From assembly GCA_003554865.1 (NCBI GenBank), contig PWHJ01000238.1:1-35482 (forward strand): DNA of 35,482 nucleotides, written 5' to 3'. The notes below the pieces were generated by a model, which was not told the origin of the DNA, did no database searches, and saw only the letters and a list, made by a program, of their open reading frames with translations. Origin of the DNA: Bacteroidota bacterium. Its GTDB lineage: Bacteria > Bacteroidota > Bacteroidia > Bacteroidales > PUMT01. Each line of letters starts with the position of its first letter. Position 1 is the stretch's first letter. The translations under genes were made by a program, and so were the position numbers. Shown here one piece after another: positions 13,099-33,518 of this stretch.

Positions 13099-13109
13099 GA
13101 TCAATTTTT

Positions 13110-13748: not shown

Positions 13749-13750
13749 TT

Positions 13751-14518: not shown

Positions 14519-14606
14519 AACAGTGATTTTTTCCACCCGTGTCTTGCGGAGCCCTATAAAAAATTCTACTTTTAGGATGAATTTTCCGGTTACGGGGAAT
14601 TATTTG

Positions 14607-16058
14607 TCAATTTTTGCCTATAAATTTTTCGGCTTCAGCGAGCGATTTTTCCAGCTCTTTGTCTGCATTTTGCGGGAGTCTTACAGGTTCTGAGGAGGCC
14701 AGAATTTCACTGACTTTCTCATTGGCAACATCAAGTATACTTTTCTTACCCTCCTTTTCCCAAGCTGATATAGATTGCCTTTTGAAATTCTCAGGAATAA
14801 AAAACTCTTTTCTGAAATTTTCGGCAGTATGGTCTTCTTCAAGGTAGTTACCCTGAAACCCTACTTTCCTGATAACGTCAAGTGCGAGGGTTTCGTTATT
14901 GACTGTAACCCCCTTTAATACTTCCTTTACCATATGCGCTATCTCGTCGCATATTACCAGCATCTCCTTTGATCCGTACATGCCACTTGCAAGTGTTCCC
15001 ATTACCTTTGTCAAAGTTATTCCTGAAAGAGCATTCATTAGCATGCCCATCATGGCCTGCGCACCCGCTTCAGCATCGGGCATTTTTGACTCTGCCGCGC
15101 CGCCCAGATTATAGGTTGGCAGCTTGTAGAATTTGCCAAGTTGTGCAACAACGGTACGTGCTGCGGTTTGTTCGGGACTTGCGTAGGTGTATTCCGATAT
15201 TGACATGTCGAATGTTCCCGTTCCCGGTCCATATATCACAGGTGCCCCGCTTTTTACAAGTTGTGCAAGAACAACCCCGAATAAAGCTTCCGCATTGCCC
15301 TGCACAAGTGTGCCTGCTTTTGTTGCCGGACTGGTGGCACCCATCATCGGGGCCAGGGCCACGATCACCGGAATTCCCGCCTGAGCCGCATCGATTGTTC
15401 CGTCACTGTATTTGGCTACCTTCATCGGTGAGACGGTTTCGGTAAAAATACCGATGGACGGCCTTTTGCGTAATTCTTCTTCGCCCCCGCTGGCTATTGC
15501 CGCCATTTCCATGAACTTTTGAACATGGTAACGGCTGGGGGCACTGTACAATAATGGCTTTGATGTGTTACGCAACAGAGCGTCATATTCGTGAAACAGC
15601 TGCTTTCCTTCAGGTTTGTCGCCGGCGGAACAAATGGCTCCCACGAAATCTATGTTGGACAAAGCCTCACCAAGTTTTGTGCACTCTTCCATGTCCTTTT
15701 TCGTGGGGGTACGCTTTTGACCTTCGTTATAATCCCATATAAAAGGCTCGGGAGAGCCTCCCATTCCAAAATAAATCCTCTCCGGCTCAAGAAGAATATC
15801 CATGCCGGGATCCCTTCCGTGGAGGACAAATGAAGATGGTGCTGATTTTATCGACTCCTCCACCATATTTCGGGGTATTTTTATAACCCTGGCAGAAGTG
15901 TCAACATTTGCCCCCCCCTTTTTAAAAACATCCATGATTAGATCCGATTCACTGTAAATGCCCTCTTTCTCAAGCAGCAATAAAGATCCCTGATGTATCT
16001 TTTCCAGTTCCGAATCCGATAACATGTTGAATAATCTGCTTTTGGCACCTTTCTTCAT
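14607..16058 (-). CDS. MttB-family (trimethylamine methyltransferase-like) protein, thiamine-linked copy
   Basis: 483 residues from ATG 16058, preceded by a good ribosome site (AAGGA, 7-nt spacing); the open frame to a TTG at 16100 is therefore not used. MttB-superfamily proteins move a methyl group from a quaternary or tertiary amine to a corrinoid protein. Recognisable: LSDSELEKIHQGSLLLLEKEGIY at the start, GMGGSPEPFIWD, ALAPMMGATSPATKAGTLVQ, ISEYTYASPEQ and LGGAAESKMPDAEAG. No in-frame stop interrupts it, so it is a non-pyrrolysine member. It differs clearly from the tandem pair at 22813-25764. It lies between glnS and thiM on one strand, far from any corrinoid protein gene except the cluster at 22 kb. 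Substrate unknown. Confidence 0.9.
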   Translation of the reverse strand: MKKGAKSRLFNMLSDSELEKIHQGSLLLLEKEGIYSESDLIMDVFKKGGANVDTSARVIKIPRNMVEESIKSAPSSFVLHGRDPGMDILLEPERIYFGMGGSPEPFIWDYNEGQKRTPTKKDMEECTKLGEALSNIDFVGAICSAGDKPEGKQLFHEYDALLRNTSKPLLYSAPSRYHVQKFMEMAAIASGGEEELRKRPSIGIFTETVSPMKVAKYSDGTIDAAQAGIPVIVALAPMMGATSPATKAGTLVQGNAEALFGVVLAQLVKSGAPVIYGPGTGTFDMSISEYTYASPEQTAARTVVAQLGKFYKLPTYNLGGAAESKMPDAEAGAQAMMGMLMNALSGITLTKVMGTLASGMYGSKEMLVICDEIAHMVKEVLKGVTVNNETLALDVIRKVGFQGNYLEEDHTAENFRKEFFIPENFKRQSISAWEKEGKKSILDVANEKVSEILASSEPVRLPQNADKELEKSLAEAEKFIGKN

Positions 16059-16097
16059 AATTATTCCTTCTTTTGGGTAATTTTTAAAGTTGCTGGA

Positions 16098-16105
16098 CAA
16101 AAATA
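16098..16105 (-). promoter_or_regulatory. Candidate -7 box for the MttB-family gene and thi genes
   Basis: On the minus strand it reads TATTTTTG, an exact TAnnTTTG match, about 40 nt before ATG 16058. A T-run just upstream (minus strand of 16119-16128), following a weak GC-rich fold, may end glnS transcripts. This would make the MttB gene the head of a separate unit. Confidence 0.45.
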
Positions 16106-18966: not shown

Positions 18967-21069
18967 ATGCATTTAAAAACATATATTAAAAAAAAGATTT
19001 TGGTTTTGGATGGTGCCACTGACACCATGTTGGAAGAATTAAACTTAAAAGAAGAAAACTCCGAAGAGGGCAGTCTCAGCCAACTTCACTGCGGGCTAAA
19101 AGGGGAAAATGACCTTCTTGCCCTGAGCCATCCCCAAGTAATTGAAACAATTCATTCCCGTTATCTGGATGCCGGCGCTGATATTATCAGGACAAATACG
19201 GTAAATTCCAATTCCCTTTCCAATTGTGTTTCCATGAGGGACTCAGTCTATGAGATCAATAACCGCTCCGCCCTGTTGGCAAAACAAAAAGCCCGTGAAT
19301 ATTCAACCGTTTCCAAACCAAGGTTTGTGGCCGGGGTTGTCGGCCCATCCCGAAAAGTATCAGCTGATTCAAATGGAACCCGGGAGCAGGGAAAAGAACC
19401 CGATTTTGAATCTTTGTGTCATAGTTATGAAATGCAGGTCAGGGGACTTGCAGATGGAGGCGTTGATATGTTCCTTGTCGACAAGATTGACGATCCTTAT
19501 GCTATAAAAGCCGTAATATGCGCAATTGAAAAGTACGTTTCGGCTATTTCAAAAGATATACCGGTAATGATTTCCGTACCCCTCAACAAAAAAGGGGAGC
19601 TTCCTTCAGGTCTGTCTTTCGAAGATTTTCTCAATTTCATATCAGAATATTCCATTTTTAGTATTGGTATTAAATCCCATTTTGGTGAAAAAAATCTGAA
19701 ATCTTTTCTTCAGATGATTTCAGATAAAACCCCGTTTTATGCCGGTTATCACCCTGGTACAGTTAATCCCGGGAGAGCTTTGGTGAACGGGCTGTCTGCC
19801 GGTGCTGTGGCAGATGAAATAGCAGAATATTCCCGCATGGGGCTTTTAAATATATCAGGTGGTTGCTGCGGACTACGCCCTGATCATATAAAGGCTATTT
19901 CAGATACGGTAGAATCATATAAGCCTGCAAAGGTAAAGCCAAATGCGAATATTGCACCGGAAGCAATACCTAAAGGTATAAGCATTGCATGTTCAACTAT
20001 AGGGAAAATAAAAAAACAAGATATGCCGGAGAGCAGAAAAAAAGAGAGTGGTGCCCGCCGGAAGCGAAAGAGAATTCCCACTTTTGCCTTAACCGAGGCG
20101 AGGGTTAAAAGGTACAAGCCCGATTGGGAAAAGGAGAAGCCTGAAAAGCCTGAATTTACCGGTGTAAAGGTGTTTGATAATTATCCCCTTGAGGAGATAA
20201 GAAGATATATCGACTGGACTTCTTTTTTCAATGGCTGGGGAATGAAAGGTAAGTATCCCCAAATTCTCCGCACGGAAGATAAAGGTGAGGAAGCCAGAAG
20301 ATTGTTGGGCGAGGCAAATGAAATGCTTGATCATATAATTGAGAAATCCCTTGTGAAGGCAAAAGGCGTTGTCGGGTTATTCCCGGCCAATTCAAAAGGT
20401 GATGACATAATAGTCTTTGAAGATGAGGAAAGAGAACAAGTTCTCCGGGTATTGCCGATGCTGAGACAGCAAAAGGCAGTAGGCGGTGAGCCATGGTGTT
20501 ACTGCTTAAGCGATTATGTTGCTCCACTCAGGTCAGGCCTCAGCGATTATATAGGAGCTTTTGCAGCAACTGCCGGCCTGGGGGCTGATAAATGCCTGGA
20601 TTATTTTAATGGCAATGGAGAGCAGTATGAAAGTGTTATGTTTCGCTTTATATGTGACAGGCTTACGGAAGCGTTTGCCGAAATACTTCACTTGAAGGTG
20701 AGAAGGGAGCTCTGGGGATACGAAAAGGGCAATATGCCAACAATTGAAGAAATTCAGAACGGCAGATTTGCAGGTATCCGCCCGGCTCCGGGTTATCCCA
20801 CCTGCCCCGACCATACCCTTAAAAAGCCATTGTTTGAGCTGCTGGGGGGAGAAAAGAAAACCGAAATATCACTTACTTCCAGTTATGCTATGGACCCTGC
20901 AAGTTCAGTTGCGGGATTTTATATTGGCTATCCCAAAGCAAAATATTTTGGTGTCGGTAAAATTTTCAGGGACCAGGTCAAGGATTATGCAGAAAGGCTG
21001 GGCCAAAGCATTGAGGAAACAGAAAGATGGCTTAGGGCTAACACAAATTACAAGGCGGGGGTTAAATAA
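18967..21069 (+). CDS. MetH-like protein: homocysteine-binding domain fused to AdoMet reactivation domain
   Basis: 700 residues. Residues about 8-310 match the homocysteine-binding barrel of MetH (LDGATDTMLEEL with D15; DAGADIIRTNTVNS; GGCCG at 298-302). Residues about 380-695 match the MetH activation domain (FTGVKVFDNYPLEEIRRYID, GVVGLFPANSKGDDI, and the AdoMet-binding RPAPGYPTCPDH at 605-616). The methyl-folate and cobalamin domains normally between them are absent. Of the three zinc cysteines, two (C300, C301) remain, but the first (GINC in known enzymes) is Ser237 followed by His238. Either it is the thiol-methylating, self-reactivating part of a dismantled methionine synthase, or its barrel has changed substrate and it mainly reactivates the corrinoid protein at 22073. 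First gene of the cluster. Confidence 0.85.
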   Translation: MHLKTYIKKKILVLDGATDTMLEELNLKEENSEEGSLSQLHCGLKGENDLLALSHPQVIETIHSRYLDAGADIIRTNTVNSNSLSNCVSMRDSVYEINNRSALLAKQKAREYSTVSKPRFVAGVVGPSRKVSADSNGTREQGKEPDFESLCHSYEMQVRGLADGGVDMFLVDKIDDPYAIKAVICAIEKYVSAISKDIPVMISVPLNKKGELPSGLSFEDFLNFISEYSIFSIGIKSHFGEKNLKSFLQMISDKTPFYAGYHPGTVNPGRALVNGLSAGAVADEIAEYSRMGLLNISGGCCGLRPDHIKAISDTVESYKPAKVKPNANIAPEAIPKGISIACSTIGKIKKQDMPESRKKESGARRKRKRIPTFALTEARVKRYKPDWEKEKPEKPEFTGVKVFDNYPLEEIRRYIDWTSFFNGWGMKGKYPQILRTEDKGEEARRLLGEANEMLDHIIEKSLVKAKGVVGLFPANSKGDDIIVFEDEEREQVLRVLPMLRQQKAVGGEPWCYCLSDYVAPLRSGLSDYIGAFAATAGLGADKCLDYFNGNGEQYESVMFRFICDRLTEAFAEILHLKVRRELWGYEKGNMPTIEEIQNGRFAGIRPAPGYPTCPDHTLKKPLFELLGGEKKTEISLTSSYAMDPASSVAGFYIGYPKAKYFGVGKIFRDQVKDYAERLGQSIEETERWLRANTNYKAGVK

Positions 21070-21102
21070 TCACACTTTTATGAATTTAAAAGAGTTGATA
21101 TT

Positions 21103-22020
21103 ATGAGAATTACAGATATATTTGAAAAAGAAAAACGTACATTTTCCTTCGAGTTTTTTCCCCCGAAAAACACAAAGGCTGCCGTACAATTCGGTATCAA
21201 TGCCGGACAGCTGATGAAGCTCCAACCCTCTTTTGTGACTGAAACATGCGGAGCCGGGGGAACCACAGATGATAAAACTCTCGATATAGTTGACCTTTTT
21301 ACCAATAAGCTGAAATTTACCTGCATGCCACACTATACATGTGTGAACGCAACAAGGGAAAAGGTTGCATATGATATGCGCACCTTTGTTGACAAAAACA
21401 TTGAAAATGTGATGCTGCTCCGGGGAGACCCTCCCGAAGGCGGGCCCTTCCCTGAAAACCCCGATGGGTTGAATTATGCAAGTGATCTGATTAATTTTGT
21501 GAAAAAGCATTATGATCATTTTTGTATAGGGGCTGCTGCTTATCCGGAAAAACATCCCGAAGCCCCCTCAATGAAAAAAGATATCGAGAATTTGAAGAAA
21601 AAGGTAGACGAGGGTGCAGACTTTCTTGTAACACAAATGTTTTTTAAAAACGATTACTATTACAAGTTTATGGATAAAGTCAGAAAGGCAGGGATAAAGT
21701 GCCGTGTGATACCGGGGTTGCTTCCTATAACCGATTTCAGGCAGATAAAAAGGTTTGCCGAAATATCCGGAGCTCATATTCCGGAAATGCTGCAGAAAAA
21801 AATGTCAGATGTTATTGACAAACCAGATGAAGTTTACAATATTGGGCTGGATTATGCGGTGCAGCAAGCGCATGATCTTCTCGACAACGATGCTCCCGGG
21901 TTGCATTTTTTCACCCTGAACAGAAGCCGTTCGGCAGTTGAGATTTATAAGTCACTTGCCGATAATTACAAGGACCTCAGGGAAAGATATCAAGAAAGCT
22001 TTACACCCCATGTGCCATAA
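21103..22020 (+). CDS. metF: 5,10-methylenetetrahydrofolate reductase
   Basis: 305 residues (E. coli MetF is 296). A flavoprotein interconverting methylene- and methyl-tetrahydrofolate. The N-terminal TFSFEFFPPK carries the catalytic Glu (E17); VMLLRGDPPEGG and CRVIPGLLPIT are typical. It can work either way: reduction to supply methyl groups for methionine, or oxidation of methyl-THF from demethylation. It lies 33 bp after the MetH-like gene. A tiny 8-codon frame (21080-21106) overlaps its start as ATGA. Confidence 0.95.
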   Translation: MRITDIFEKEKRTFSFEFFPPKNTKAAVQFGINAGQLMKLQPSFVTETCGAGGTTDDKTLDIVDLFTNKLKFTCMPHYTCVNATREKVAYDMRTFVDKNIENVMLLRGDPPEGGPFPENPDGLNYASDLINFVKKHYDHFCIGAAAYPEKHPEAPSMKKDIENLKKKVDEGADFLVTQMFFKNDYYYKFMDKVRKAGIKCRVIPGLLPITDFRQIKRFAEISGAHIPEMLQKKMSDVIDKPDEVYNIGLDYAVQQAHDLLDNDAPGLHFFTLNRSRSAVEIYKSLADNYKDLRERYQESFTPHVP

Positions 22021-22072
22021 AATATAAATTATAATTATTAATCAATTATTAAAAATTTAAAAACTATTAGTC

Positions 22073-22717
22073 ATGAGTAGTGATTTGGGAAAAATTTCAG
22101 ATGCATTAACAAAAGGTAATGTAGATGAACTTAAAGAAGTAGTGCAGCAGGCACTTGACAACGATGCAGTTCCTGCAGACCTTTTAAATAAAGGGTTGTT
22201 GCCCGGAATGGAGGCAGTAGGGCAGAAATGGAAAAACGGTGAAATGTTTATGCCTGAAGTGCTCAGATGCGCCAAGGCTATGAGCGGTGCCATGGATATA
22301 CTCAGACCCCGCCTGGCTAAAGAGGATCTGGGCAGTGCCGGTAAAATGGTTATCGGAACGGTATCGGGGGATCTTCACGACATTGGAAAGGACCTGGCTG
22401 CAATGATGTTTGAAGGTGCCGGCTATGAGGTTGTAAATATTGGAATAGACCAGCCAAACGAGAAATTTGTTGAAGCTGCTAAAGAACACAAGCCGACCCT
22501 TTTGGGTATGTCAGCTCTTTTGACAACAACCATGCCCCGCATGGGCGAAGTTATCAATTCATTGAAAGAGGCCGGCATACGTGACCAGATGGCAGTGATA
22601 ATTGGTGGTGCACCGGTAACTCAGGAATTTGCCGAGGAGATCGGGGCCGATATATATGCACCAAATGCCGGTTCTGCAGTTGATCTGGCCAGGGAATATT
22701 TTGAAAGTAAAGCCTGA
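22073..22717 (+). CDS. Corrinoid-binding methyl carrier protein (MtbC/MttC/MtgC-like)
   Basis: 214 residues. The N-terminal four-helix cap (about 1-85, KWKNGEMFMPEVLRCAKAM) is followed by a cobalamin-binding Rossmann domain. The signature DLHDIG (100-105) places the lower cobalt ligand at His102; MSALLTTTM and GGAPVT complete the binding site. Such proteins carry the methyl group on cobalt between a substrate-specific methyltransferase (here MttB-like) and a second methyltransferase. It fills the domain missing from the MetH-like protein. It precedes the mttB pair, separated by a hairpin (22749-22787). Confidence 0.95.
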   Translation: MSSDLGKISDALTKGNVDELKEVVQQALDNDAVPADLLNKGLLPGMEAVGQKWKNGEMFMPEVLRCAKAMSGAMDILRPRLAKEDLGSAGKMVIGTVSGDLHDIGKDLAAMMFEGAGYEVVNIGIDQPNEKFVEAAKEHKPTLLGMSALLTTTMPRMGEVINSLKEAGIRDQMAVIIGGAPVTQEFAEEIGADIYAPNAGSAVDLAREYFESKA

Positions 22718-22748
22718 ATCAATCCCTGATGGGAAAAAAATATGTAGT

Positions 22749-22787
22749 AACCCGAGACAGCTTTCGCCAAGAAAGCTGTTGAGGGTT
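22749..22787 (+). other. Intercistronic hairpin between the corrinoid gene and mttB pair
   Basis: Inner stem ACAGCTTTC (22757-22765) pairs perfectly with GAAAGCTGT (22771-22779) around a 5-nt loop. Outer AACCC / GGGTT (22749-22753 with 22783-22787) extends it past a 3-by-3 internal loop. No U-tract follows directly. It could protect the upstream mRNA, attenuate, or mark a processing site. Confidence 0.65.
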
Positions 22788-22812
22788 TAATTAATTAAAA
22801 AAATAAAAGTTT

Positions 22813-24261
22813 ATGAAGATAAATCAGACCATAAACAAGAGTCCGCAATTCAGGGTTCTTTCTGAAGACCAGATAGAGCAAATCTATTTCTCCGCCCTTG
22901 AAGTTATGGAAAGGACAGGAGGGGTGGTATATCATGAAGGGGCTTTGGAGCTATTCAAAAACAGTGATGCCCTCGTTGAAGGAAACAGGGTGAGAATCCC
23001 CATCACAATGGTTGAGGAAGCTCTGAAATCCTACCCCAGGAAGATAACCCTGAAGGGAAGAAATGGTAAGCGCTCTCTTTTTCTTGAAAAAGATATGGTG
23101 TCTTTTGGCACCGGATCAGATCTCCCCTTTACACTGGACATGAACACCGGTGAGAGAAGGAACACCACTTACAAGGATGTGAGTGATGCATCCAAGCTTG
23201 TGGACGCCTTGTCAAATTTCGATTTTCACATGTCTCACGGGATTGTTACTGACGCTCCCAATCCCCAGACTTACGACCGCCATCAGTTTATGGCTATGCT
23301 TGAGAATTGTACAAAGCCAATGGTTGTGACAAGTGTTGACGGGGAAGGCCTAGAAGATCTCTGGAAAATGGGATGTCTTATTCAGGGCGGGGAGCATGAA
23401 TTCAGGCTCAATCCCATGTTTGTTGTATATATTGAACCTATCTCCCCGCTTAAAAATGATTCAACGGCTGTTGAAAAGCTTCTGTTTGCAGCTGAAAAGA
23501 GAATCCCGGCAATGTACACCCCATGTCCGAGTTCGGGAGCGACGGCCCCTGCCACCATTGCAGGCATGCTTGTACAGTCGCTGGCCGAGACTTTGCTGGC
23601 CATAGTTATGTGTCATTTGAAGAATCCCGGAATGCCGCTTATAATGGGTGGTGTAACAACCCTGCTGGATATGAGGAAGTCAACCTACTCATACGGAGCT
23701 CCGGAGCTGTCACTCGCATCTGCTGCAAACACAGATATTTCAAAATGGCTCAATCTGATCATGTTCAGCACCGGGGGATGCACCGATGCAAAAATACTTG
23801 ATGAGCAGGCAGCCTCAGAACAGATGATGAATCTTTTCTACTCGTACCTCTCCGGAGCAAACCTGATACATGATGTGGGATATATTGACCATGGAACGAC
23901 AGCCTCACTTGAGAGCCTGGTGCTTAACCAGGAGATGATAGGTATGGTAAAGCAGTTTGGAAAGGGGATCAATACCGATGATGAGCATCTGGCTTTGGAT
24001 CTTATAGAAAAGCAGGGCCCCGGGGGTGAATATGTTACAACCGATCATACTTTCAAATACTGGAAAGAATGGTTCATGCCCCAGTTGCAGGACCGGAGCG
24101 ATTATGAAACATGGGTCAAGAACGGATCCAAAACTATGGGGCAAAGATTAAAAGAGCGTACCCAGCATCTTCTGGATACATATCAGCCTGAGCCGCTGGA
24201 TGAAAAGCTTCGCAAAGAGCTGAAAAAAATATGTGAAGATGCAGATAAGCGTCACATGTAA
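22813..24261 (+). CDS. MttB-family corrinoid methyltransferase, first of tandem pair
   Basis: 482 residues, full length without an amber codon, so it is a non-pyrrolysine MttB-superfamily member like the glycine betaine methyltransferase MtgB. Expected reaction: quaternary amine plus Co(I) corrinoid protein gives tertiary amine plus methyl-Co(III). Seen: FRVLSEDQIEQIYFSALEVM at the N-terminus, PCPSSGATAPATIAGMLVQS, YSYGAPELSL (Y292-) and GGCTDAK (C323-T324-D325). That last motif lies near the position of pyrrolysine in the archaeal enzymes (about residue 330). It follows its corrinoid protein and is 24 bp before its paralogue. The substrate cannot be fixed by sequence. Confidence 0.93.
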   Translation: MKINQTINKSPQFRVLSEDQIEQIYFSALEVMERTGGVVYHEGALELFKNSDALVEGNRVRIPITMVEEALKSYPRKITLKGRNGKRSLFLEKDMVSFGTGSDLPFTLDMNTGERRNTTYKDVSDASKLVDALSNFDFHMSHGIVTDAPNPQTYDRHQFMAMLENCTKPMVVTSVDGEGLEDLWKMGCLIQGGEHEFRLNPMFVVYIEPISPLKNDSTAVEKLLFAAEKRIPAMYTPCPSSGATAPATIAGMLVQSLAETLLAIVMCHLKNPGMPLIMGGVTTLLDMRKSTYSYGAPELSLASAANTDISKWLNLIMFSTGGCTDAKILDEQAASEQMMNLFYSYLSGANLIHDVGYIDHGTTASLESLVLNQEMIGMVKQFGKGINTDDEHLALDLIEKQGPGGEYVTTDHTFKYWKEWFMPQLQDRSDYETWVKNGSKTMGQRLKERTQHLLDTYQPEPLDEKLRKELKKICEDADKRHM

Positions 24262-24285
24262 ATAATCCAATAAAACATATTACCT

Positions 24286-25764
24286 ATGAGTGTAAGAACT
24301 AACTATACAGTATATGAAAGCCCGCGATTGCAGATACTTTCCGAAGACCAGAAGGAGAAGATCTTAAATGGAATGATGCGTACCCTTCAGTACACAGGTG
24401 CGCATGTTCATCACGAAAAGGCAAGGGAGCTGTTCAAAAAGGCGGGATGCAAGGTTGACGGTGTTACGGTATATTTTCCTCCTGAAGTAATACTTAAAGC
24501 TCTTTCCACAGTGCCGCCGGTGACGGAAGTATTTCCCTGGGACGGGAATAAGGAGAAGAAGGTGGTTGTGGAGAAGAACCGCAGCTACTTTGGTCCGGGG
24601 CCGACTCCTCCCAATTTTATTGATACCGATACAATGGAGAGAAGGAAATACCTGCGCAAAGATGCCAATATCGTAGCACGGGTATGTGATGCGCTCCCTA
24701 ATATTGGTTTCGTGCAGTCTTTGGGCTCGATCAGCGATGTAACCAACGACCTTGCAGATGTTTATGAATTTGCCGATATGGTGCGCAATACCACCACTCC
24801 AATAATGAGCTGGTCTTTTACAAGGGAGGGGTGCAGGGATATTCACCGTATAGCCATTGCTATGGCAGGCGGGGAAGAAGAGTTCCGCCAGCGCCCCAAT
24901 TACATTTTTTACGGGGAGCCTATTTCTCCCCTTGTGAGTGACTTTCATGCAATTGACAAATGTATGTACTGTGCCGAGAATCGTATTCCCCAGGTCTACA
25001 GTCCATGTGCCATAGGAGGAGGAACGGTGCCTGCCACACATGCCGGTCAGCTTGTGGTTGCCCTCTCGGAATCTATGGTAGGGGTCATTGCGGCACAGCT
25101 GATCAATCCCGGGACATGCGTTATTATTGGTGGTGTACAGTCGATCCTGGATATGCGCTATTCAATATATTCCTACGGCGCGCCGGAATTGAGCCTTTTA
25201 AGCTCGGCTTTAACTGAGGTTGTCCAGTATTGCGGACTACCCATGTATTCACAGTCGGGTTGCACCGATACCAAGAAAATGGATATGCAGTCGGCATTGG
25301 AGGCAAGTCTTTCAATCAATGCTGCAATGATGAGCGGTGCTAATTTTGTCCATGATAACGGCTATACCGAAAGCGGTCTTACCGGCGATGTTTTCCAGAC
25401 GGTGATGGATGATGAACTGATATCCATGGCAAGGGTGATTGAAAGAAGCTTTGATGTTAACAAGGAAACCCTCAGTGTGGATGTTATTGACAGTGTAGGT
25501 CCCGGCGGCCATTACCTTTATGAAGACCATACCATGAAATGGTTCCGAACATACTGGATGCCAACGCTGATGGACCGTAACTCCTACGAGGGATGGGTGG
25601 AAGAAGGACGTAAGACGATGAAAGACCGCATAATTGAAAAGACAAGAGATCTAATTGACAATTATGAAGGTCCCCGCGGAAAAGTACCGGCTCAGGCCGA
25701 CAAGGAGATTGAAAGGATTCTTCAGGAAGCCGAAAAAAGAGCAAAAGAGTCAGAAAGCAAGTAA
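24286..25764 (+). CDS. MttB-family corrinoid methyltransferase, second of tandem pair
   Basis: 492 residues, uninterrupted, non-pyrrolysine. It shares with the preceding gene LQILSEDQKEKI, YSYGAPELSL (Y295-), SGCTDTKKMD (C326-T327-D328) and GPGGHYLYEDHT. It differs widely elsewhere, so the pair is an old duplication and may have distinct substrates or form a heteromeric enzyme. The C-terminus is a charged helical tail (IERILQEAEKRAKESESK). Its distance of 24 bp from the first copy indicates cotranscription. A strong stem-loop follows it. Substrate unknown. Confidence 0.93.
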   Translation: MSVRTNYTVYESPRLQILSEDQKEKILNGMMRTLQYTGAHVHHEKARELFKKAGCKVDGVTVYFPPEVILKALSTVPPVTEVFPWDGNKEKKVVVEKNRSYFGPGPTPPNFIDTDTMERRKYLRKDANIVARVCDALPNIGFVQSLGSISDVTNDLADVYEFADMVRNTTTPIMSWSFTREGCRDIHRIAIAMAGGEEEFRQRPNYIFYGEPISPLVSDFHAIDKCMYCAENRIPQVYSPCAIGGGTVPATHAGQLVVALSESMVGVIAAQLINPGTCVIIGGVQSILDMRYSIYSYGAPELSLLSSALTEVVQYCGLPMYSQSGCTDTKKMDMQSALEASLSINAAMMSGANFVHDNGYTESGLTGDVFQTVMDDELISMARVIERSFDVNKETLSVDVIDSVGPGGHYLYEDHTMKWFRTYWMPTLMDRNSYEGWVEEGRKTMKDRIIEKTRDLIDNYEGPRGKVPAQADKEIERILQEAEKRAKESESK

Positions 25765-25789
25765 AACCAACTGCTTTATGCAGTCATTC

Positions 25790-25848
25790 AATACACCGGC
25801 AAACCTTCCGGCCCCGCTTTTTAGCGGGGCCCCGGTGCCCGGTGTATT
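25790..25848 (+). other. Strong branched stem-loop after the mttB pair
   Basis: Outer arm AATACACCGG (25790-25799) pairs perfectly with CCGGTGTATT (25839-25848). An inner arm GGCCCCGC (25810-25817) pairs with GCGGGGCC (25824-25831) around a T-rich loop. The following sequence is AT-rich but has no proper U-run, so it is a poor intrinsic terminator. It more likely stabilises the upstream mRNA or causes partial termination before the accessory genes. Confidence 0.7.
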
Positions 25849-25880
25849 AATATTAAGCAAGATGAAAACAGGAGCCATCT

Positions 25881-27866
25881 ATGAATCGATATGTCATTGG
25901 CATTGATACCGGTGGAACATTTACCGATGGTGTGCTGCTTGACTACTCAACAAGAAAGGTTGTATCTGCTGCAAAAACACTTACCACACGCAGCGATCTG
26001 AAAAAAGGGGTTATCAGGGTTTTGAAAAAACTTGATATTCAAGGTGATTACAACATAAAACTAGTGGGTATCTCAAGCACTCTGGCCACCAATTCGGTTG
26101 CAGAAGGAAAAACCAGGAAGATAGCACTTCTTCTTATAGGATACGACAGCCAACTTATAAAGAATTACGGATTGAGTGATGATCTGGCCTCCCGTGAAAT
26201 AGTCTATTTTAAGGGTGGGCATACGGCCCAGGGTTCGGAGTTGGCGCCCCTTGACAGGAAGGCTGTTGAGAAATGGGTAGTTGAAAATAAGAGCGATTTT
26301 GATGCAATTGCAGTCTCATCATATTTTAGTCCGCTCAATCCTTCCCATGAAAAGGAGGCTTTCGAAATAATCGGCTCCCTCTCGGATCTTCCCGTTGTTA
26401 TGGGCCACCAGTTATCCGGGAAGCTGAATTCGATCAAAAGGGCTGCAACGGCGGCAATAAACGCTTCTCTTGTAGCTGTTATGAAGGATTTTATAAGTTC
26501 CGTGCAGCTCTCACTTGAGGAGCTGGGGATAAAAGCCCCCCTGATGATCGTAAGAGGTGACGGAAGCCTGATGCCATGCCGTGAGGCTGTATCTAAGCCC
26601 GTGGAGACAGTTCTTTCAGGCCCGGCAGCAAGTGCTATCGGGGCACACTTTTTGCTTGGCAAAAACAGCTCGCTTGTGATTGATATGGGCGGTACAACAA
26701 CAGATATGGCGCTTGTGGACAACGGAAAAGTGAAGGTTACGTCAGAAGGTGCAAGGGTTGGAAATGTTTCAACGGCCGTGGAAGCTGCCAATATACGCAC
26801 CGTCAGCCTGGGGTGTGACAGCAGGATATGGTTTGACAAAAAAAGCAGGATATGTGTTGGTCCCGAGCGGGTACGTTCCCTCTCTCAGCTTTCGCAACAC
26901 TACAAAAGTGTCGCTGACGATTTTAAAAAGATCAAAGGCAACCCTTCCAAAATAAAAAATGTTCACGATCTCGAGTACTGGCATCTTTACAGGGAACCGG
27001 ACAATAATGTAATGGAAGCGCTCTCAAAGGACCAGCAAAGGGTGCTTGCAAGACTGAGGGAGCCTTGCAGGCTGAGTGAAATTATGGATGATGAAGGTGT
27101 TTTTCACCCATCACATCTTAATCTCAATGACTTGGTTCAACAGGGGTACATTGAGTGCTCAATGCTGAACCCCTCTGATCTTTTGCATGTTTCAGGCCGC
27201 CTTGATTTGTGGGATTGGGAGGTAGCTGAAATTGCAGCCGAATGTATGTCCGGCTTATACAATATGGAGAAAAAGGATTTTATCGAAGAGGTATTTACCA
27301 GGATAGAAAATACCATTATTGAAGAGATATTTATTTATCTTGCTTCTCACAATACAAGGGAAGCAATGCCGGGGAAAGTGGACGGCAAATGGGGTAAATG
27401 GTTGCTGGGGGAGCTTTTGGATCCTCAAAGTGATTATCTCAATGTTGAGATCAACAGTCTTTTGCCTGTTGCCGGTACAGGTGCGCCTGCCCGCCATTTT
27501 CTGAAAAATGTTTGCCGCAGGCTGAACGCAAGGATGCTGACCCCCGAATATGCCCACGTTGCAAATGCCGTTGGTGCGGTTTCCGGATTTGTAACCGAGG
27601 CAAGGGAAGCAATAGTCTTTATCAGGGAGGAAAACGATAAATTTACCTATATTGTCAAGTGTAACGGAGAGTTCAGTAATTTTGAAACCCACGAGGAGGC
27701 TTGTGAATATGCAAAGCAGATAGCTCAAAGGGTGGCAAAGGAGGCGGCCATATCAGCGGGTTCCTCGGAGCCTTATATTGAGTTGACAAAGAAAGTGGAA
27801 GGCTCTCTGACAAGATTTTTAGCCCGTGCAACCGGCAATCCGAAATTGTCTGAATTAAAACTTTGA
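25881..27866 (+). CDS. Hydantoinase/oxoprolinase A-like ATPase-fold protein
   Basis: 661 residues. Hydantoinase_A N-domain with GIDTGGTFTDGVLLD (residues about 7-21), then the main domain with the second phosphate motif VIDMGGTTTDMALV and PVAGTGAPARHF near residue 535. These are actin/ASKHA-type nucleotide-binding motifs. A middle segment (about 375-425, ending PSDLLHVSGRLDLWD) looks like a small winged-helix-type insert. No HyuB partner is next to it, so it is probably not a hydantoinase. The corrinoid reactivators RACo and RamA also bind nucleotide through ASKHA or related folds, and this gene sits among corrinoid enzymes. A role in corrinoid protein reactivation is therefore plausible but inferred. 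Confidence 0.85.
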   Translation: MNRYVIGIDTGGTFTDGVLLDYSTRKVVSAAKTLTTRSDLKKGVIRVLKKLDIQGDYNIKLVGISSTLATNSVAEGKTRKIALLLIGYDSQLIKNYGLSDDLASREIVYFKGGHTAQGSELAPLDRKAVEKWVVENKSDFDAIAVSSYFSPLNPSHEKEAFEIIGSLSDLPVVMGHQLSGKLNSIKRAATAAINASLVAVMKDFISSVQLSLEELGIKAPLMIVRGDGSLMPCREAVSKPVETVLSGPAASAIGAHFLLGKNSSLVIDMGGTTTDMALVDNGKVKVTSEGARVGNVSTAVEAANIRTVSLGCDSRIWFDKKSRICVGPERVRSLSQLSQHYKSVADDFKKIKGNPSKIKNVHDLEYWHLYREPDNNVMEALSKDQQRVLARLREPCRLSEIMDDEGVFHPSHLNLNDLVQQGYIECSMLNPSDLLHVSGRLDLWDWEVAEIAAECMSGLYNMEKKDFIEEVFTRIENTIIEEIFIYLASHNTREAMPGKVDGKWGKWLLGELLDPQSDYLNVEINSLLPVAGTGAPARHFLKNVCRRLNARMLTPEYAHVANAVGAVSGFVTEAREAIVFIREENDKFTYIVKCNGEFSNFETHEEACEYAKQIAQRVAKEAAISAGSSEPYIELTKKVEGSLTRFLARATGNPKLSELKL

Positions 27867-27872
27867 GTTGGT

Positions 27873-28562
27873 TTGATTGAAAAACCCAAAAATAAAGTTG
27901 TTATTTCATGCGGAAGCCTTAAGGCTGAGTTGGAAAAGCTCGAGCCGAAAGCACACGGCATCCGGGTATGTTACATGCCACATAACCTGCACAGGTTACC
28001 TGACAAAATGAGGGAAATGCTGCAGGAGAAAATTAATGAGTTTGATACTCGCGATAATCAGATTGTACTGGGTTACGGACTTTGCTCAAATGGGGTTGCC
28101 GGACTGAAAGCTCCGGTAAACGGCTTTTATGTTCCAAGGGTTCACGATTGTATAGCACTTTATCTTGGAAGTCTGGAGCGATACCACCGCTTTTTCAGAG
28201 AAAGACCCGGGACTTATTATCTTACAAAAAACTGGATAGAAAATCAAAAAGACCCCCTGGGCCTGCTGGAAAACGAATATACAAGGAGGGTCGGCGTTGA
28301 GATGGCAAGGGAAACAATAGAGAGGGAGCTGAAAAATTACAGCTATATATGTTATATAAACACAGGTGATAAAAATGAGAATAAGCTCAGAGAGAGGGCA
28401 ATTGAAAATGCAAAAGCTCTGGGAAAAGAATTCATAGAGGTTGAAGGTGATAATCTTTATTTCAGGAAGATATTGTTCGGCCCGTATGAGAAAAAAGATT
28501 TCGTTTATATAGAACCTAACCAGATAAGCAATTACAAAAACTTTTTTAAAAAGGAGAATTAA
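27873..28562 (+). CDS. DUF1638 protein
   Basis: 229 residues from a TTG start. It matches the uncharacterised DUF1638 family: ISCGSLKAEL, GYGLCSNGVAGLK, VPRVHDCIALYLGSLERYH. The conserved Cys and His-Asp-Cys suggest metal or cofactor binding, but no activity is known to me. It starts 6 bp after the hyuA-like stop, in the same frame with only one TGA between them. No ATG or GTG is available before the conserved region, so the start is uncertain. The next gene follows after 2 bp. DUF1638 genes are often seen with MttB-type methyltransferases (from memory), which fits here. Confidence 0.85.
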   Translation: MIEKPKNKVVISCGSLKAELEKLEPKAHGIRVCYMPHNLHRLPDKMREMLQEKINEFDTRDNQIVLGYGLCSNGVAGLKAPVNGFYVPRVHDCIALYLGSLERYHRFFRERPGTYYLTKNWIENQKDPLGLLENEYTRRVGVEMARETIERELKNYSYICYINTGDKNENKLRERAIENAKALGKEFIEVEGDNLYFRKILFGPYEKKDFVYIEPNQISNYKNFFKKEN

Positions 28563-28564
28563 TT

Positions 28565-29362
28565 ATGCTAATAGTCGGAGAATTGATAAATGCCAGCAGA
28601 AAAAAGATCAGAGAAGAGATCAGGGAAAAGAACTACGATGCAATTGCTGAAGTTGCTAAAGATCAGCATGAGAACGGAGCCTGCTATATAGATGTAAATG
28701 CGGGTATATTTGTAGGAAAAGAAGCCGATTACATGAAATGGCTCATTCAGACCGTTCAGGAAAATGTCGATGCCCCTTGTTGTATTGACACTCCCGATCC
28801 TCAAGTGATCGAAGAAGCGCTGAAGGTACACAAGGGTACTCCCATGATCAACTCGATCTCGCTTGAAAAAGGCCGCTATGAAAACATGATCCCCGTTCTC
28901 AGGGGCACCGATTTTAAAGTGATCGCCCTTTGCATGAGTGATGAAGGAATGCCCCATACAAAGGACGAGCGGTTAAAGATTGCTGACAATCTTGTCAACA
29001 GTCTGGTAAAAAATGATATCAAAATTGAGAACATATTTGTTGACCCCCTGGTTCAGCCTATCGGATCGGGTGATCACCTCGGACGGGAGTTCCTTGATTC
29101 CATTGAGGCCATACATGAAAGGTATGAAGGGATAAATACCATTTGCGGTATGTCAAATATTTCATTCGGTATTCCAAAACGTGGTGTTGCAAATCGCACT
29201 TTTATGGTTATGGCCATAACTAAGGGTCTTAATTCTGCAATAATGAATCCGTTGGACCAAAAAATGATGGCTTCAGTATTAACTGCTGAAATGCTGCTTG
29301 GCAAAGACCAGTTTTGTGAAAATTATATGAATGCTTACCGCGAGGGGAAACTGGATTTTTAA
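28565..29362 (+). CDS. Pterin-type corrinoid:tetrahydrofolate methyltransferase (MtgA/AcsE-like)
   Basis: 265 residues, a stand-alone TIM-barrel pterin-binding methyltransferase. It is the expected size and type of MtgA (methyl-corrinoid to THF) and AcsE (methyl-THF to the corrinoid iron-sulfur protein). Motifs: GELINASRKKI, YIDVNAG, CIDTPDP, DPLVQPIG, GMSNISFGIPKR and AIMNPLD. A clear ribosome site (AAGGAG, 8-nt spacing) precedes the ATG, one of the few in the window. It supplies the folate-binding function missing from the MetH-like protein and can run either way, linking the corrinoid protein at 22073 with MetF. Confidence 0.93.
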   Translation: MLIVGELINASRKKIREEIREKNYDAIAEVAKDQHENGACYIDVNAGIFVGKEADYMKWLIQTVQENVDAPCCIDTPDPQVIEEALKVHKGTPMINSISLEKGRYENMIPVLRGTDFKVIALCMSDEGMPHTKDERLKIADNLVNSLVKNDIKIENIFVDPLVQPIGSGDHLGREFLDSIEAIHERYEGINTICGMSNISFGIPKRGVANRTFMVMAITKGLNSAIMNPLDQKMMASVLTAEMLLGKDQFCENYMNAYREGKLDF

Positions 29363-29442
29363 ATCACTTGTTTGTTAACCCAAAACGGTTTGACCGACAA
29401 AGCTATCAGAGTGAAATGTGTTAAACAAAAAATATTATATTT

Positions 29443-30288
29443 ATGTGTGACGAAAACAAAAAATATTCAAAAGACGCCGAAACGGCAAGAGAATACTATA
29501 ACAGCAAAGACGCCTATAATTTCTATTATCACGTTTGGGGCGGTGAAGATGAGCATCTGGGCATTTATATAAGTCCCGATGACGATATATTTACTGCCAG
29601 CCGCAGAACCATCAGGGAAATGTCGGCTCTTGCCGATATTGACGAGAATACAAGGATAATAGACCTTGGCGGTGGTTTTGCCGGTAGTGCCCGCTACCTT
29701 GCCAAAAAATTCGGATGTCATGTAACTGTTCTCAATATCAGTGAAGCGGAAAATGAAAGGGGAAGGAAAATGAACAAGGATCAGGGCCTTGATCATCTTA
29801 TAGATATAGTAGACGGTAATTTTGAAAATATCCCCTTTGACAATGAATCCTTTGATATTGTTTGGTCTCAGGATGCCATACTTCACAGCAGTTACAGGGG
29901 GAAGGTCATTGAAGAGGCTGTTCGTGTACTTAAGCCGGGGGGTGATTTAATTTTTACAGATCCCATGCAGACGGGTAATTGTGACGAGAAAGAGCTGGAA
30001 CCGGTATACAGGAGATTGAATCTTTCATCTCTGGGGTCACCCGAATTTTATGAGAAAGCTTGCAGGGAACAGGGACTGCAAAAGTTAAGGTTTATAGATT
30101 TGCAGTATCACCTGGTGAAACATTATTCCACAGTTCTGGAACTGACCAGGGAAAAGGAGGAATCACTCAAAAAAGATGTATCCGGGGAATATCTCTCAAA
30201 TATGAAAACCGGACTTGGCCACTGGATAGATGGGGGCAAGAAAGGTAATCTTACATGGGGGATTTTTCATTTTAATAAGCCGAAATAA
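29443..30288 (+). CDS. Sarcosine/dimethylglycine N-methyltransferase-like SAM enzyme
   Basis: 281 residues, class I SAM-dependent methyltransferase. The N-terminal part (ETAREYYNSKDAYNFYYHVW, ASRRTIREM) and the core (IIDLGGGFAGSARYLAKKFG, VLNISEAENERGR, VWSQDAILHS, LKPGGDLIFTDPMQTG) strongly resemble the sarcosine/dimethylglycine N-methyltransferase that makes glycine betaine from sarcosine. It lies 80 bp after the MtgA-like gene and completes the cluster. If the assignment is right, this operon both makes and takes apart methylated glycines. Related small-molecule methyltransferases (phosphoethanolamine, dimethylglycine, tocopherol type) are alternatives. Confidence 0.85.
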   Translation: MCDENKKYSKDAETAREYYNSKDAYNFYYHVWGGEDEHLGIYISPDDDIFTASRRTIREMSALADIDENTRIIDLGGGFAGSARYLAKKFGCHVTVLNISEAENERGRKMNKDQGLDHLIDIVDGNFENIPFDNESFDIVWSQDAILHSSYRGKVIEEAVRVLKPGGDLIFTDPMQTGNCDEKELEPVYRRLNLSSLGSPEFYEKACREQGLQKLRFIDLQYHLVKHYSTVLELTREKEESLKKDVSGEYLSNMKTGLGHWIDGGKKGNLTWGIFHFNKPK

Positions 30289-30429: not shown

Positions 30430-32856
30430 ATGGATGGTAATAATCCGGATAACGCTGGCAGAAGCCATGTTCCGCCCATTTCGGCGATTGATCGGAGGTG
30501 CTTTTTGAGACTGAGTGCTTTTTTCAGCGGGGGGTTGCTGGCTTCCGGCTCTTTACTGGGTTGCTTGCAGGGCGAAGAAGGTAAAGGTCAGATTGTCAGC
30601 GTAAATGATGATGGCAGCGTAATTATAAGGGCCGGATGTCCCTCCCACAATTGTGGCGGACGCTGTGTGCTGAAGCTGCATGTGAGGGACGGGGAAATTG
30701 TTCGCATTGAGACAGACGACCGTCCAACCGATGATATTTCTGATCCACAATTGCGTGCCTGTATAAGGGGACGTTCATACCGCCGCCGGCAGTATCACCC
30801 GGATCGTCTTAAATATCCGATGAAGCGGGTTGGAGAAAGAGGTGAAGGCAAGTTTGAACGTATTTCATGGGATGAGGCGCTGGAAATACTGGCTTCCCGG
30901 CTTAAAAGGGTAAAGGAAAAATACGGAAATTCAGCCATTCTTGTCCCTTACGGCACCGGAAGCTATAACCAGACAAACGGGAGGCAGACTGCAGCCCGGT
31001 TGATGAACCTTTTCGGTGGCTCGCTTGGTTTTTACAACAGCTATAGCTGGGCATGCATAAGCCGCGCCACCCCTTATGTTTACGGAACAAGTGTGACAGG
31101 TAACCAGCGTCAGGATTGGATAAACTCCCGGTATATTATTATGTGGGGCTGGAACCCTGCTGAGATGCGTGACGGTACCAACAGCGAGTTTTTTATAAAA
31201 AAAGCCCGTGAAAATGGAGCGAGGGTGATTTGTATTGATCCGCGAATGAGTATGAGTGCCGTATCGCTGGCCGATGAGTGGATACCCATCAGACCGGGTA
31301 CAGATACTGCACTGATGAGTGCCATGGCTTATGTTATAATATCTGAGGATCTCCACGATAAGGATTTTATAAATCGATGCTGCATCGGTTTTGATAAGTC
31401 GCAAATGCCCGATGGACTTGAGGAGGAGGAAAGCTACATTGATTATATTTTCGGAACCAAAGACGGGGTGCCCAAAACTCCCGGGTGGGCCGAGGAAATA
31501 ACCGGTATACCAGCCCGCACCATAATAAGGATAGGGCGCGAATATGGCTCAATCAAACCTGCAATGCTTTACCAGGGCTATGGAATGCAAAGGAGGGCAT
31601 ACGGTGAGCAGCCTGTGCTCGGAGGATGTGTTTTAGCTGCCATAACCGGTAATGTTGGAATATCCGGCGGATGGGCAAGTGGTATAGCTTTGCAGGTGGC
31701 TGATGGGGGGCCTTTATGGAATGTTTTTCCAACAGGGAGAAATCCCGTAAGGGAAATGATCCCTGTTTTTTTGTGGACCGAGGCTGTTTTGAGGGGGAAG
31801 GAAATGGGTCCTGAAGATGGAGTTGTAGGGGGCGACAGACTGCAAAACAATATTAAGCTTATTTGGTGTGTTGCCTCAAATATACTTATTAACCAGCATT
31901 CTGATGTAAACAGGTCGGCCGAAATACTTAAGGATGAAAACCTGGTTGAATTTATAGCTTTCCAGGATCAGTTCATGACACCTTCGGGCCGTTTTGCCGA
32001 TCTGGTGCTGCCCGTGTGCACTCAGTTTGAGGTTTGGGGATTGCAGGACGGGTGGAAATATGGTGATGAAGTTATAATAAATCCGAAAATATACGATCCA
32101 CCTAACGAGGCCAAAAGTGATTACAGAATATGTGCCGAGCTATCTGAGAAGCTTGGTCTGAAGGATGAGTTCACCCAGGGCAGGGATGAAAGGGAATGGA
32201 TAGAATGGGCAGTTAACCATTTCCGCAATACAAGATTTCCCGAAATACCTTCCCTTGATCAGCTGCATGAAAAAAACAGGGGTGTTTATTCTGTGCCTGT
32301 TGAGAAACCCAAGGTGGCATTGTCCGATTTTCGTGATGATCCTGAAAATAACCCTCTTAATACTCCAACGGGTAAAATAGAGATCTTTTCAAGGCAGCTG
32401 TATGATATGGACAAGCCCGATGTTATACCTCCCGTTCCCAAATATATTCAGGAATGGGAGAGCCCGTTCGGGGAAGAGAGTAAACGCTTTCCTCTTCAGG
32501 CTGTCGGGCATCATTACATGCCGCGCGTACACTCTATCCATGACCAGATAGACTGGCTTGAGGAGGCTTTCCCCCAAAGGGTTTTTATAAATCCTTTGGA
32601 TGCTTCAGATAGAGGTATAAAAAACGGGGATCAGGTGCGTGTTTACAATGAAAGGGGCGAGATGGTTATCCCCTGCAGGGTAACCGCCAAGATTATGCCG
32701 GGTGTGGTGAACATACCCCAAGGTGCGTGGTGGACTCCCGATGAGGAAGGAGTCGACAGGCGCGGTTGTGTCAATGTGCTGACCAGCCATAAATGGACAC
32801 CCCTTGCCTTCGGGAATGCCCAGCATACAATTATGTGCCAGGTTGAGAAAGCTTAA
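30430..32856 (+). CDS. dmsA: DMSO reductase-type molybdopterin catalytic subunit
   Basis: 808 residues, close to E. coli DmsA. It reduces S- or N-oxides (DMSO, TMAO) outside the cytoplasmic membrane with bis-MGD molybdenum. The N-terminus has a twin-arginine signal (DRRCFLRL, R22-R23), then SLLGC (C45), which resembles a lipobox, so a Tat-exported lipoprotein is possible. The iron-sulfur cluster site is C70, C75, C79 and C111. DmsA-type stretches RACIRGRSYRRRQYHPDRLK and GEGKFERISWDEAL are near identical to the family. By alignment with DmsA, the molybdenum ligand is Ser206 in NSYSWACI. Leads dmsABC after the methyl-transfer cluster; the true oxidant is not known. Confidence 0.9.
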   Translation: MDGNNPDNAGRSHVPPISAIDRRCFLRLSAFFSGGLLASGSLLGCLQGEEGKGQIVSVNDDGSVIIRAGCPSHNCGGRCVLKLHVRDGEIVRIETDDRPTDDISDPQLRACIRGRSYRRRQYHPDRLKYPMKRVGERGEGKFERISWDEALEILASRLKRVKEKYGNSAILVPYGTGSYNQTNGRQTAARLMNLFGGSLGFYNSYSWACISRATPYVYGTSVTGNQRQDWINSRYIIMWGWNPAEMRDGTNSEFFIKKARENGARVICIDPRMSMSAVSLADEWIPIRPGTDTALMSAMAYVIISEDLHDKDFINRCCIGFDKSQMPDGLEEEESYIDYIFGTKDGVPKTPGWAEEITGIPARTIIRIGREYGSIKPAMLYQGYGMQRRAYGEQPVLGGCVLAAITGNVGISGGWASGIALQVADGGPLWNVFPTGRNPVREMIPVFLWTEAVLRGKEMGPEDGVVGGDRLQNNIKLIWCVASNILINQHSDVNRSAEILKDENLVEFIAFQDQFMTPSGRFADLVLPVCTQFEVWGLQDGWKYGDEVIINPKIYDPPNEAKSDYRICAELSEKLGLKDEFTQGRDEREWIEWAVNHFRNTRFPEIPSLDQLHEKNRGVYSVPVEKPKVALSDFRDDPENNPLNTPTGKIEIFSRQLYDMDKPDVIPPVPKYIQEWESPFGEESKRFPLQAVGHHYMPRVHSIHDQIDWLEEAFPQRVFINPLDASDRGIKNGDQVRVYNERGEMVIPCRVTAKIMPGVVNIPQGAWWTPDEEGVDRRGCVNVLTSHKWTPLAFGNAQHTIMCQVEKA

Positions 32857-32885
32857 GGTAACATTTGAGAAATAAACTTACAGAA

Positions 32886-33518
32886 ATGGGCAAAAAACAG
32901 CTTGCTTTTTATTTTGACTCGTCTTCATGCTCGGGCTGCAAAACCTGTCAGGTTGCCTGCAAGGATAAGCATGATAGCGGGGAAGGCATACTGTGGCGAA
33001 GGGTTTACGAGGCTGCCGGCGGTGATTGGGTAAAGGACGGTAATGCCTGGGTACCCAATGTTTACTCCTATTATATTTCTATGGCATGTAATCATTGTGT
33101 AGAGCCACTTTGTCTTTATTCATGTCCGAATAATGCTATAGTAAAGAATGATGACGGTATTGTCCTTATCGAGAAGGATAGGTGTATGGGATGCCGCTAC
33201 TGTGAATGGAATTGTCCCTACGGCGCTCTTCAGTTTGACAAGTCACAGGGGGTAATGACCAAGTGCACGTTTTGCGATGATTACCTGGCAGAGGGCAAAA
33301 AACCCTCCTGTATAACGGCCTGTCCAATGCGGGTACTTGATATTGGTGAGCTTGAGGAGCTGGAGAAGGAACATGGCAAAAGCAACGAGATCTTCCCTAT
33401 GCCCAGGGCTCATTATACTCAGCCTGCAATTGTCGTAAAGCCGCACCGGGATGCAAGAATGGCAGAAAATGTTGAAATGAAAATTGATAATCTGGAGGAG
33501 ATTAAAAATGAACAGTAA
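32886..33518 (+). CDS. dmsB: DMSO reductase-type iron-sulfur subunit
   Basis: 210 residues from ATG 32886; an in-frame TTG at 32865 is less likely. An electron-transfer subunit with four [4Fe-4S] sites. The cysteine groups are CSGCKTCQVAC, CNHCVEPLCLYSCP, CMGCRYCEWNCP and CTFCDDYLAEGKKPSCITACP. It passes electrons from the membrane subunit to the catalytic subunit. It starts 29 bp after dmsA and overlaps dmsC by 11 bp. Confidence 0.95.
   Translation: MGKKQLAFYFDSSSCSGCKTCQVACKDKHDSGEGILWRRVYEAAGGDWVKDGNAWVPNVYSYYISMACNHCVEPLCLYSCPNNAIVKNDDGIVLIEKDRCMGCRYCEWNCPYGALQFDKSQGVMTKCTFCDDYLAEGKKPSCITACPMRVLDIGELEELEKEHGKSNEIFPMPRAHYTQPAIVVKPHRDARMAENVEMKIDNLEEIKNEQ

Follow-up and report, generated by a model that had tools for sequence, protein, structure and literature searches.

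The stretch of DNA analysed here, called the window, is a complete 35,482-nucleotide contig (PWHJ01000238.1, or C226) of a Bacteroidales bacterium, whose genome (GCA_003554865.1, or G000) is a metagenome-assembled genome (MAG) of 3.2 Mb in 243 contigs with 96% completeness. Its subject is a row of nine plus-strand open reading frames (ORFs), unbroken and spanning exactly positions 18967–30288 with intergenic gaps of 3–117 bases, as read from the ORF list and from Pfam and NCBIfam profile searches (Table 1). A preliminary description made from the letters alone had proposed, at these coordinates, a complete corrinoid methyl-transfer cluster in a Bacteroidetes-like genome; the coordinates and named domains are recovered here, the domain content agrees with the proposal, and the profiles suggested as a check (MTTB, B12-binding, Pterin_bind, and Met_synt_B12) all find matches within the cluster. 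Its predicted proteins make the cluster a corrinoid methyl-transfer module of the MttB type without pyrrolysine, and it is not a chance assembly because the gene order is kept in relatives at 46–92% protein identity. A chimeric-contig artefact is ruled out by the congener G542, which has an identical neighbourhood from glnS to DmsC.

MttB proteins are scarce in the order, with PF06253 matches in 14 of 393 genomes (13 above the cut-off), and the gene-neighbourhood survey that had been recommended finds near copies of the cluster, in the same order, spread over several families in no fewer than 12 further Bacteroidales genomes. This order was read in the two congeners (G542 and G771), in G434, G522, G445, and G644, and in the named records L132, L133, and L134; the cluster of G552 lies at a contig edge, that of G510 is split over two contigs, and that of the sister-genus genome G788 is partial. 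Gaps in the MAGs limit claims of absence. The most conserved cluster genes are the two MttBs and the corrinoid carrier, at 73–92% identity.

In most relatives outside the genus, AhcY and MetK extend the operon (identified as such in G522, judged by eye in the others), and the predicted methyl path in those relatives is one that reaches S-adenosylmethionine (SAM, AdoMet) and the SDMT-like methyltransferase. The preliminary description had named the tetrahydrofolate (THF) outlet, which is retained, and had lacked this outlet through the SAM cycle. In L133, the operon runs further into a PfkB-family kinase and then a transporter of the B12/iron type with periplasmic-binding, FecCD, and ABC components, for which B12 would be the presumed substrate. 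In the window's genus, DmsABC occupies the spot where most relatives have AhcY-MetK, AhcY is located elsewhere, and the plus-strand run continues past the nine genes into DmsABC in the window and both congeners; DmsABC lies directly downstream only in the three genomes of the genus (synteny in L072 and L073). The cluster has probably moved between families, judging from gene phylogeny, because G522 belongs to a family other than that of the window's genus and G788 groups with B1Sed; the Hcy-Act fusion was therefore apparently not simply inherited from the sister genus. The isolate names of the named relatives, for example L144 (CSSed162cmB_490), which has the same neighbourhood as the congener contig G542:C59, are taken to denote soda-lake sediment.

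Table 1. Features of the cluster and its neighbours in the window.
Feature	Position	Strand	Profile evidence
Hcy-Act: homocysteine S-methyltransferase-like domain (Hcy; residues 12–315) and Met_synt_B12 reactivation domain (Act; residues 407–677)	18967–21069	+	PF02965 355 bits, PF02574 185 bits
MetF, methylene-THF reductase	21103–22020	+	TIGR00676 313 bits, above cut-off 293.7
MtgC-like corrinoid carrier, cap and B12-binding domain	22073–22717	+	PF02607, PF02310; TIGR02370 at cut-off
MttB1, non-pyrrolysine MttB superfamily, Cys at pyrrolysine position	22813–24261	+	PF06253 329 bits
MttB2, non-pyrrolysine MttB superfamily, Cys at pyrrolysine position	24286–25764	+	PF06253 279 bits
HyuA-like, hydantoinase/oxoprolinase A family	25881–27866	+	PF05378, PF01968 (N-terminal half)
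DUF1638 protein, corrinoid-system accessory	27873–28562	+	PF07796 132 bits
MtgA/MtgD-like corrinoid:THF methyltransferase, Pterin_bind	28565–29362	+	NF005719 344.7 bits, above cut-off 259
SDMT-like SAM-dependent N-methyltransferase, sarcosine/dimethylglycine type	29443–30288	+	NF041675 best family, 359.6 bits, below cut-off 550
DmsABC, dimethyl sulfoxide/selenate-family reductase	30430–34377	+	DmsA TIGR02166 929 bits, above cut-off 777.7; DmsB and DmsC by sequence and position
MttB3, Ala at pyrrolysine position, between glnS and thiM-thiE-thiD	14607–16100	-	PF06253 334 bits

The reactivation domain and the methionine synthase of the genus

The first gene of the cluster encodes a protein of 700 amino acids (aa) without a pterin or B12 domain, which scores 533 bits against the MetH model TIGR02082 (cut-off 1010) and is not a full MetH. 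Its second half carries the marks of a MetH reactivation domain, namely the PF02965 match and the R-x-x-x-G-Y motif, present as RPAPGY at residue 605. A tyrosine of this domain has been described as universally conserved (PMC10567725). The Act domain of the cluster is about 50% identical to the MetH Act domains of the phylum. The conserved tyrosine is presumably that of the RPAPGY motif. All clusters with a complete start, L132 excepted, begin with a Met_synt_B12 (Act) domain, which occurs in three architectures: a full MetH of ∼1220–1240 aa (G434, G445, G644, L133, G788, and, with a split reading frame, G552), an Hcy-Act fusion without the pterin and B12 modules (the window's genome, G542, G771, and G522), and Act alone with 350 aa (G510). 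On a tree of Act domains, those of the clusters form a single clade apart from housekeeping MetH (support 100/99, and 100/100 with G788), and the Hcy-Act fusions cluster together (98/88 and 97/92).

In every fusion pair, the identity of the homocysteine domain is 13–23 points below that of Act, and the corresponding Hcy-versus-Act difference is -15 to -1 for housekeeping MetHs and -4 to +4 for the full-length ones in clusters. Two of the four fusions have lost a zinc ligand: Ser237 replaces one of the three zinc cysteines (Cys1) in the window, and another is changed to tyrosine in G522. The homocysteine domain of the fusions is, on the evidence of its sequence, wearing out. The Hcy-Act protein is proposed to be an AdoMet-dependent corrinoid reactivase with a decaying homocysteine domain, in preference to a thiol methyltransferase. 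For the MetH-like thiol/reactivation protein of the preliminary description, this means that the reactivation domain stands, that the protein is not MetH, and that the thiol-methyltransferase role is disfavoured by the decaying homocysteine domain and Ser237.

The actual methionine synthase of the genome lies on contig C237 and has 894 aa with Hcy, Fol, and Cob modules; a SAM riboswitch (RF00162, 75.6 bits) lies upstream of the gene (L038:8161–11278). An Rfam search found no riboswitch for the cluster at the gathering score. In the three genomes of the genus, MetH has 892–894 aa and ends after the B12 domain without Act, and PF02965 occurs once per genome, solely in the cluster. The MetH ending is shared by three genomes, and MAG gaps are therefore not its explanation. 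The complete MetHs of other relatives have 1219–1292 aa and retain Act. The economical reading is that the cluster Act would reactivate both MtgC and the short MetH.

To our knowledge, those MttB-type systems that have been characterised rely on RamA/RACo, an activase that depends on ATP. The corresponding domain, RACo_C_ter (PF14574, RamA-type/DUF4445), was not found in the window's genome, which is one of eight, among the nine cluster genomes tested, that lack it. Elsewhere, a RACo gene in G709:C215 lies close to one match for a corrinoid carrier and a weak one for an Act-like domain, and in G510:C70 a homocysteine-domain match and a weak Act-like match lie ∼14 kb from RACo; these two loci possibly represent a second, different corrinoid system.

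MttB proteins and accessory genes

All three MttBs of the genome lie within the window, match PF06253 above the cut-off, and have no in-frame amber codon, which places them among the non-pyrrolysine members of the MttB superfamily. The preliminary description had counted two, both of which belong to the cluster, and had missed the third on the minus strand. This third protein, MttB3, which may have some link to thiamine-precursor salvage, is kept adjoining glnS and thiM-thiE in the two congeners (in the window, the region with 12283–14536). An Rfam PYLIS_3 match at 23779–23878 lies inside mttB1, whose reading frame is not interrupted by a stop; the model seems to respond to mttB coding sequence, and a pyrrolysine in MttB1 is rejected.

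MttB1 and MttB2 (METHYLTRANSFERASES) form two neighbouring clades, each with support of 100/100, which group with the HyuA-linked Bacillota proteins L139_m1 and L145_m1 (44–45% identity to MttB1). They are separated from the glycine betaine methyltransferase MtgB by a 99/96 branch, and long branches leave the deeper tree unsure; identity to MtgB is 30–33% (32% for MttB1). Docking has predicted Y94, N199, R309, and H345 as the glycine-betaine residues of MtgB (PMC6855144). Only the histidine of this set is retained, in MttB1 and MttB2, and F353 is also replaced in all three MttBs, while the MtgB-like proteins L139_m2, L145_m2, 4yyc, and L151 retain Y, N, R, and H. Each of the two Bacillota loci, L139 and L145, holds one enzyme with the MtgB signature and one of the MttB1 type beside HyuA. 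Because the predicted glycine-betaine residues are replaced, the label MtgB is not supported for the predicted MttB1 and MttB2 proteins, and the quaternary amine named as methyl source in the preliminary description is not supported for MttB1, MttB2, and MttB3. For strain DCMF it has been suggested that betaine and dimethylglycine are each handled by an enzyme of their own (PMC9768040); by this analogy, dimethylglycine is no more than a candidate substrate of MttB1 or MttB2. Transporters of the BCCT betaine/choline type occur in eight of nine cluster genomes and in none of three same-family genomes without MttB, although these numbers are small.

The MtgC-like carrier has the cap (PF02607), the B12-binding domain (PF02310), and the DxHxxG motif (DLHDIG at residue 100), and the NCBIfam models specific for glycine-betaine carriers (NF047995 and NF047996) were not reached by the window proteins. 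The pterin-binding protein (PF00809) belongs with the methyl-THF:corrinoid methyltransferases (MtgA/MtgD, AcsE-like) by its NF005719 score. The SDMT-like gene is conserved in position among relatives, and its score does not reach the NF041675 cut-off; the GSMT-linked SDMT of G510 likewise falls below the NF041675 cut-off (382.8 bits), which may be too strict here. The two kinds of SDMT were not separated by NCBIfam scores. The HyuA-like protein matches Hydantoinase_A in its N-terminal half only, and no HyuB partner was found in the cluster by Pfam, so that it is not assigned to the N-methylhydantoinases or oxoprolinases. Its structure model is moderate (mean predicted local distance difference test score 68), and the nearest folds, of the N-methylhydantoinase/acetone carboxylase family, support family membership only. 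DUF1638 has been genetically linked to corrinoid methionine synthase in Phaeobacter (PMC5764234). HyuA-like, MtgC-like, MttB, and DUF1638 genes also stand together in L206 (Coriobacteriia) and L194 (Synergistaceae), and HyuA-like proteins therefore recur with corrinoid methyltransferases across phyla. In L135 (Desulfobacterales GSL_CB2_4), the HyuA-like gene is 49% and MtgA 63% identical to those of the window, with a RACo activase also present; this likeness suggests gene exchange between Desulfobacterales and Bacteroidales. Outside the cluster, window positions 2958–5543 resemble a B12-dependent (class II) ribonucleotide reductase, judged by eye.

Proposed role and alternatives

It is fairly probable, on the gene content and its conservation, that the operon carries out B12-dependent demethylation in connection with the one-carbon and SAM network, and that its cobalt would be rescued by the Act domain of the cluster and not by RamA/RACo. 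The methyl donor would be a methylated amine, probably a betaine- or dimethylglycine-type osmolyte; MttB1, MttB2, or both would move its methyl group to the Co(I) corrinoid of MtgC, from which MtgA would pass it to THF. Methyl-THF would then feed MetH and lead through methionine and SAM to the SDMT-like enzyme and other uses, or alternatively be oxidized via MetF; transfer to THF and onward to methionine or MetF, as outlined in the preliminary description, is plausible. Cobalt that has slipped to Co(II) would be reductively methylated by Act, which would use AdoMet and a reductant and so replace the ATP-dependent RamA/RACo; Act would probably also serve the truncated MetH in trans. A wider version is more tentative and falls somewhat short of even chances: an Act domain freed within an MttB operon would run two B12 machines in trans, MttB/MtgC and the Act-less MetH, with MttBs directed at a new substrate set such as dimethylglycine or another osmolyte.

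Several observations weigh against the proposed demethylation module and its rescue by Act. The L132 cluster has neither MetH (Act) nor MetF adjoining, G510 has both RACo and the cluster Act, and all three zinc cysteines are retained in two of the four fusions (G542 and G771). The residues at positions Y94/N199/R309/H345 are S/E/F/H in MttB1, P/E/Y/H in MttB2, and S/E/Y/K in MttB3. In addition, several clusters contain full MetHs, and Act could be kept for the local methionine synthase only; a MetH without Act may be functional as it stands under anaerobic life; and HyuA, from another ASKHA-type family, could be the reactivase. This last possibility, with Hcy-Act as a methionine-synthase leftover serving the truncated MetH only, is considered unlikely. 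MttB genes do have HyuA-like neighbours in loci of unrelated Bacillota and elsewhere (L139, L145, L194, and L206), the DCMF cluster that is induced by glycine betaine also contains one (PMC9768040), and RACo is missing from most of the Bacteroidales genomes; however, HyuA and RACo are found together in L135, so that HyuA is not a simple substitute, and its closest solved folds are hydantoinase and acetone carboxylase subunits.

Two further alternatives concern the direction and the substrate of methyl flow. The cluster might mainly supply methionine, formed by MetF and MetH, and SAM to osmolyte synthesis, the SAM-driven SDMT-like enzyme leading to dimethylglycine or betaine and MttB-MtgC-MtgA serving only to recover methyls from surplus osmolyte. 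The AhcY and MetK genes found behind SDMT in most of the relatives from other genera fit such a role, as do a GSMT (above the cut-off) and a second SDMT-like gene in the G510 cluster and GSMT genes elsewhere in G434 and G522, but the window's genome yielded no GSMT and its congeners none above the cut-off, the genus has no AhcY beside the cluster, and the high identity of the MttBs and the carrier suits a central role, not an accessory one; this alternative is doubtful to about the same degree as the HyuA proposal. Demethylation of glycine betaine to dimethylglycine exactly as by Desulfitobacterium MtgBC appears more improbable still. The MttB superfamily, the MtgC-like carrier, MtgA, and a HyuA as in the DCMF glycine-betaine cluster speak for it, but against it stand the low identity to MtgB, the replacement of Y94, N199, R309, and F353 in all three MttBs, and the branch that divides MttB1 and MttB2 from MtgB.

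Comparison with known systems

If demethylation with rescue by Act is correct, a SAM-dependent Act in an MttB system, together with an Act-less host MetH, would link methionine synthesis to methylated-amine turnover. Corrinoid demethylation would then also reach Bacteroidales of hypersaline habitats and soda lakes, and the MttBs would mark a subfamily whose active site is distinct. A search of the open-licence literature, which gives weak evidence of absence, turned up no MetH activation domain acting as reactivase of an MttB system, no matching loss of Act from housekeeping MetH, no account of this operon in Bacteroidales, and none of glycine betaine methyltransferases in Bacteroidales of soda lakes. 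Type 1 mlp clusters (PMC10418091) are ruled out as the same kind, since their methyltransferase is of a different family.

The kind of system is already known from the MtgBC and THF methyltransferase of acetogens and from the MtgBCDE of marine Proteobacteria. The earlier framing of MttB/MtgB systems as belonging to methanogens, acetogens, and Desulfitobacterium-type Firmicutes is out of date in view of these marine Proteobacteria (PMC12478193) and of the Sinorhizobium meliloti protein 4yyc. In Ruegeria pomeroyi and other marine Proteobacteria, MtgBCDE is a dual methionine synthase and glycine betaine demethylase; its reactivation has been ascribed, as a proposal, to a RamA-like protein, and metH is usually absent there (PMC12478193). 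The window resembles it in having an MttB-family enzyme, a separate carrier, a separate pterin methyltransferase, a nearby MetF paralogue, DUF1638, and a link to methionine. It differs in having no RamA, in the fusion of Act to Hcy, in an Act-less MetH elsewhere, in the HyuA-like and SDMT-like genes, and in MttBs without the MtgB residue set; with PF14574 absent from the genome, it is not assigned to MtgBCDE by a RamA/DUF4445 reactivase.

The glycine-betaine-induced cluster of 'Ca. Formimonas warabiya' DCMF contains three MttBs and a hydantoinase-like gene (PMC9768040), and clusters of this type share with the window several MttBs, a corrinoid protein, a second methyltransferase (MTII), and a HyuA-like gene. 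Compared with the Bacillota loci L139 and L145, both cluster MttBs are of the non-MtgB type, and the additional parts are SAM-cycle genes, SDMT, and Act. Similarly, the three-part methionine synthase of Phaeobacter inhibens (PMC5764234) has MetH modules on separate genes and DUF1638, but it works with DUF1638 and DUF4445, whereas the window's genome has no DUF4445/RACo and still possesses an Hcy-Fol-Cob MetH elsewhere. E. coli-type MetH shares the Act domain with RPAPGY, from which the fusion differs by lacking the pterin and B12 modules and the MetH of the genus by lacking Act. Together, MtgBCDE, the split MetH of Phaeobacter, and the DCMF cluster cover most of the parts, and reactivation by a MetH-type Act looks to be the new feature.

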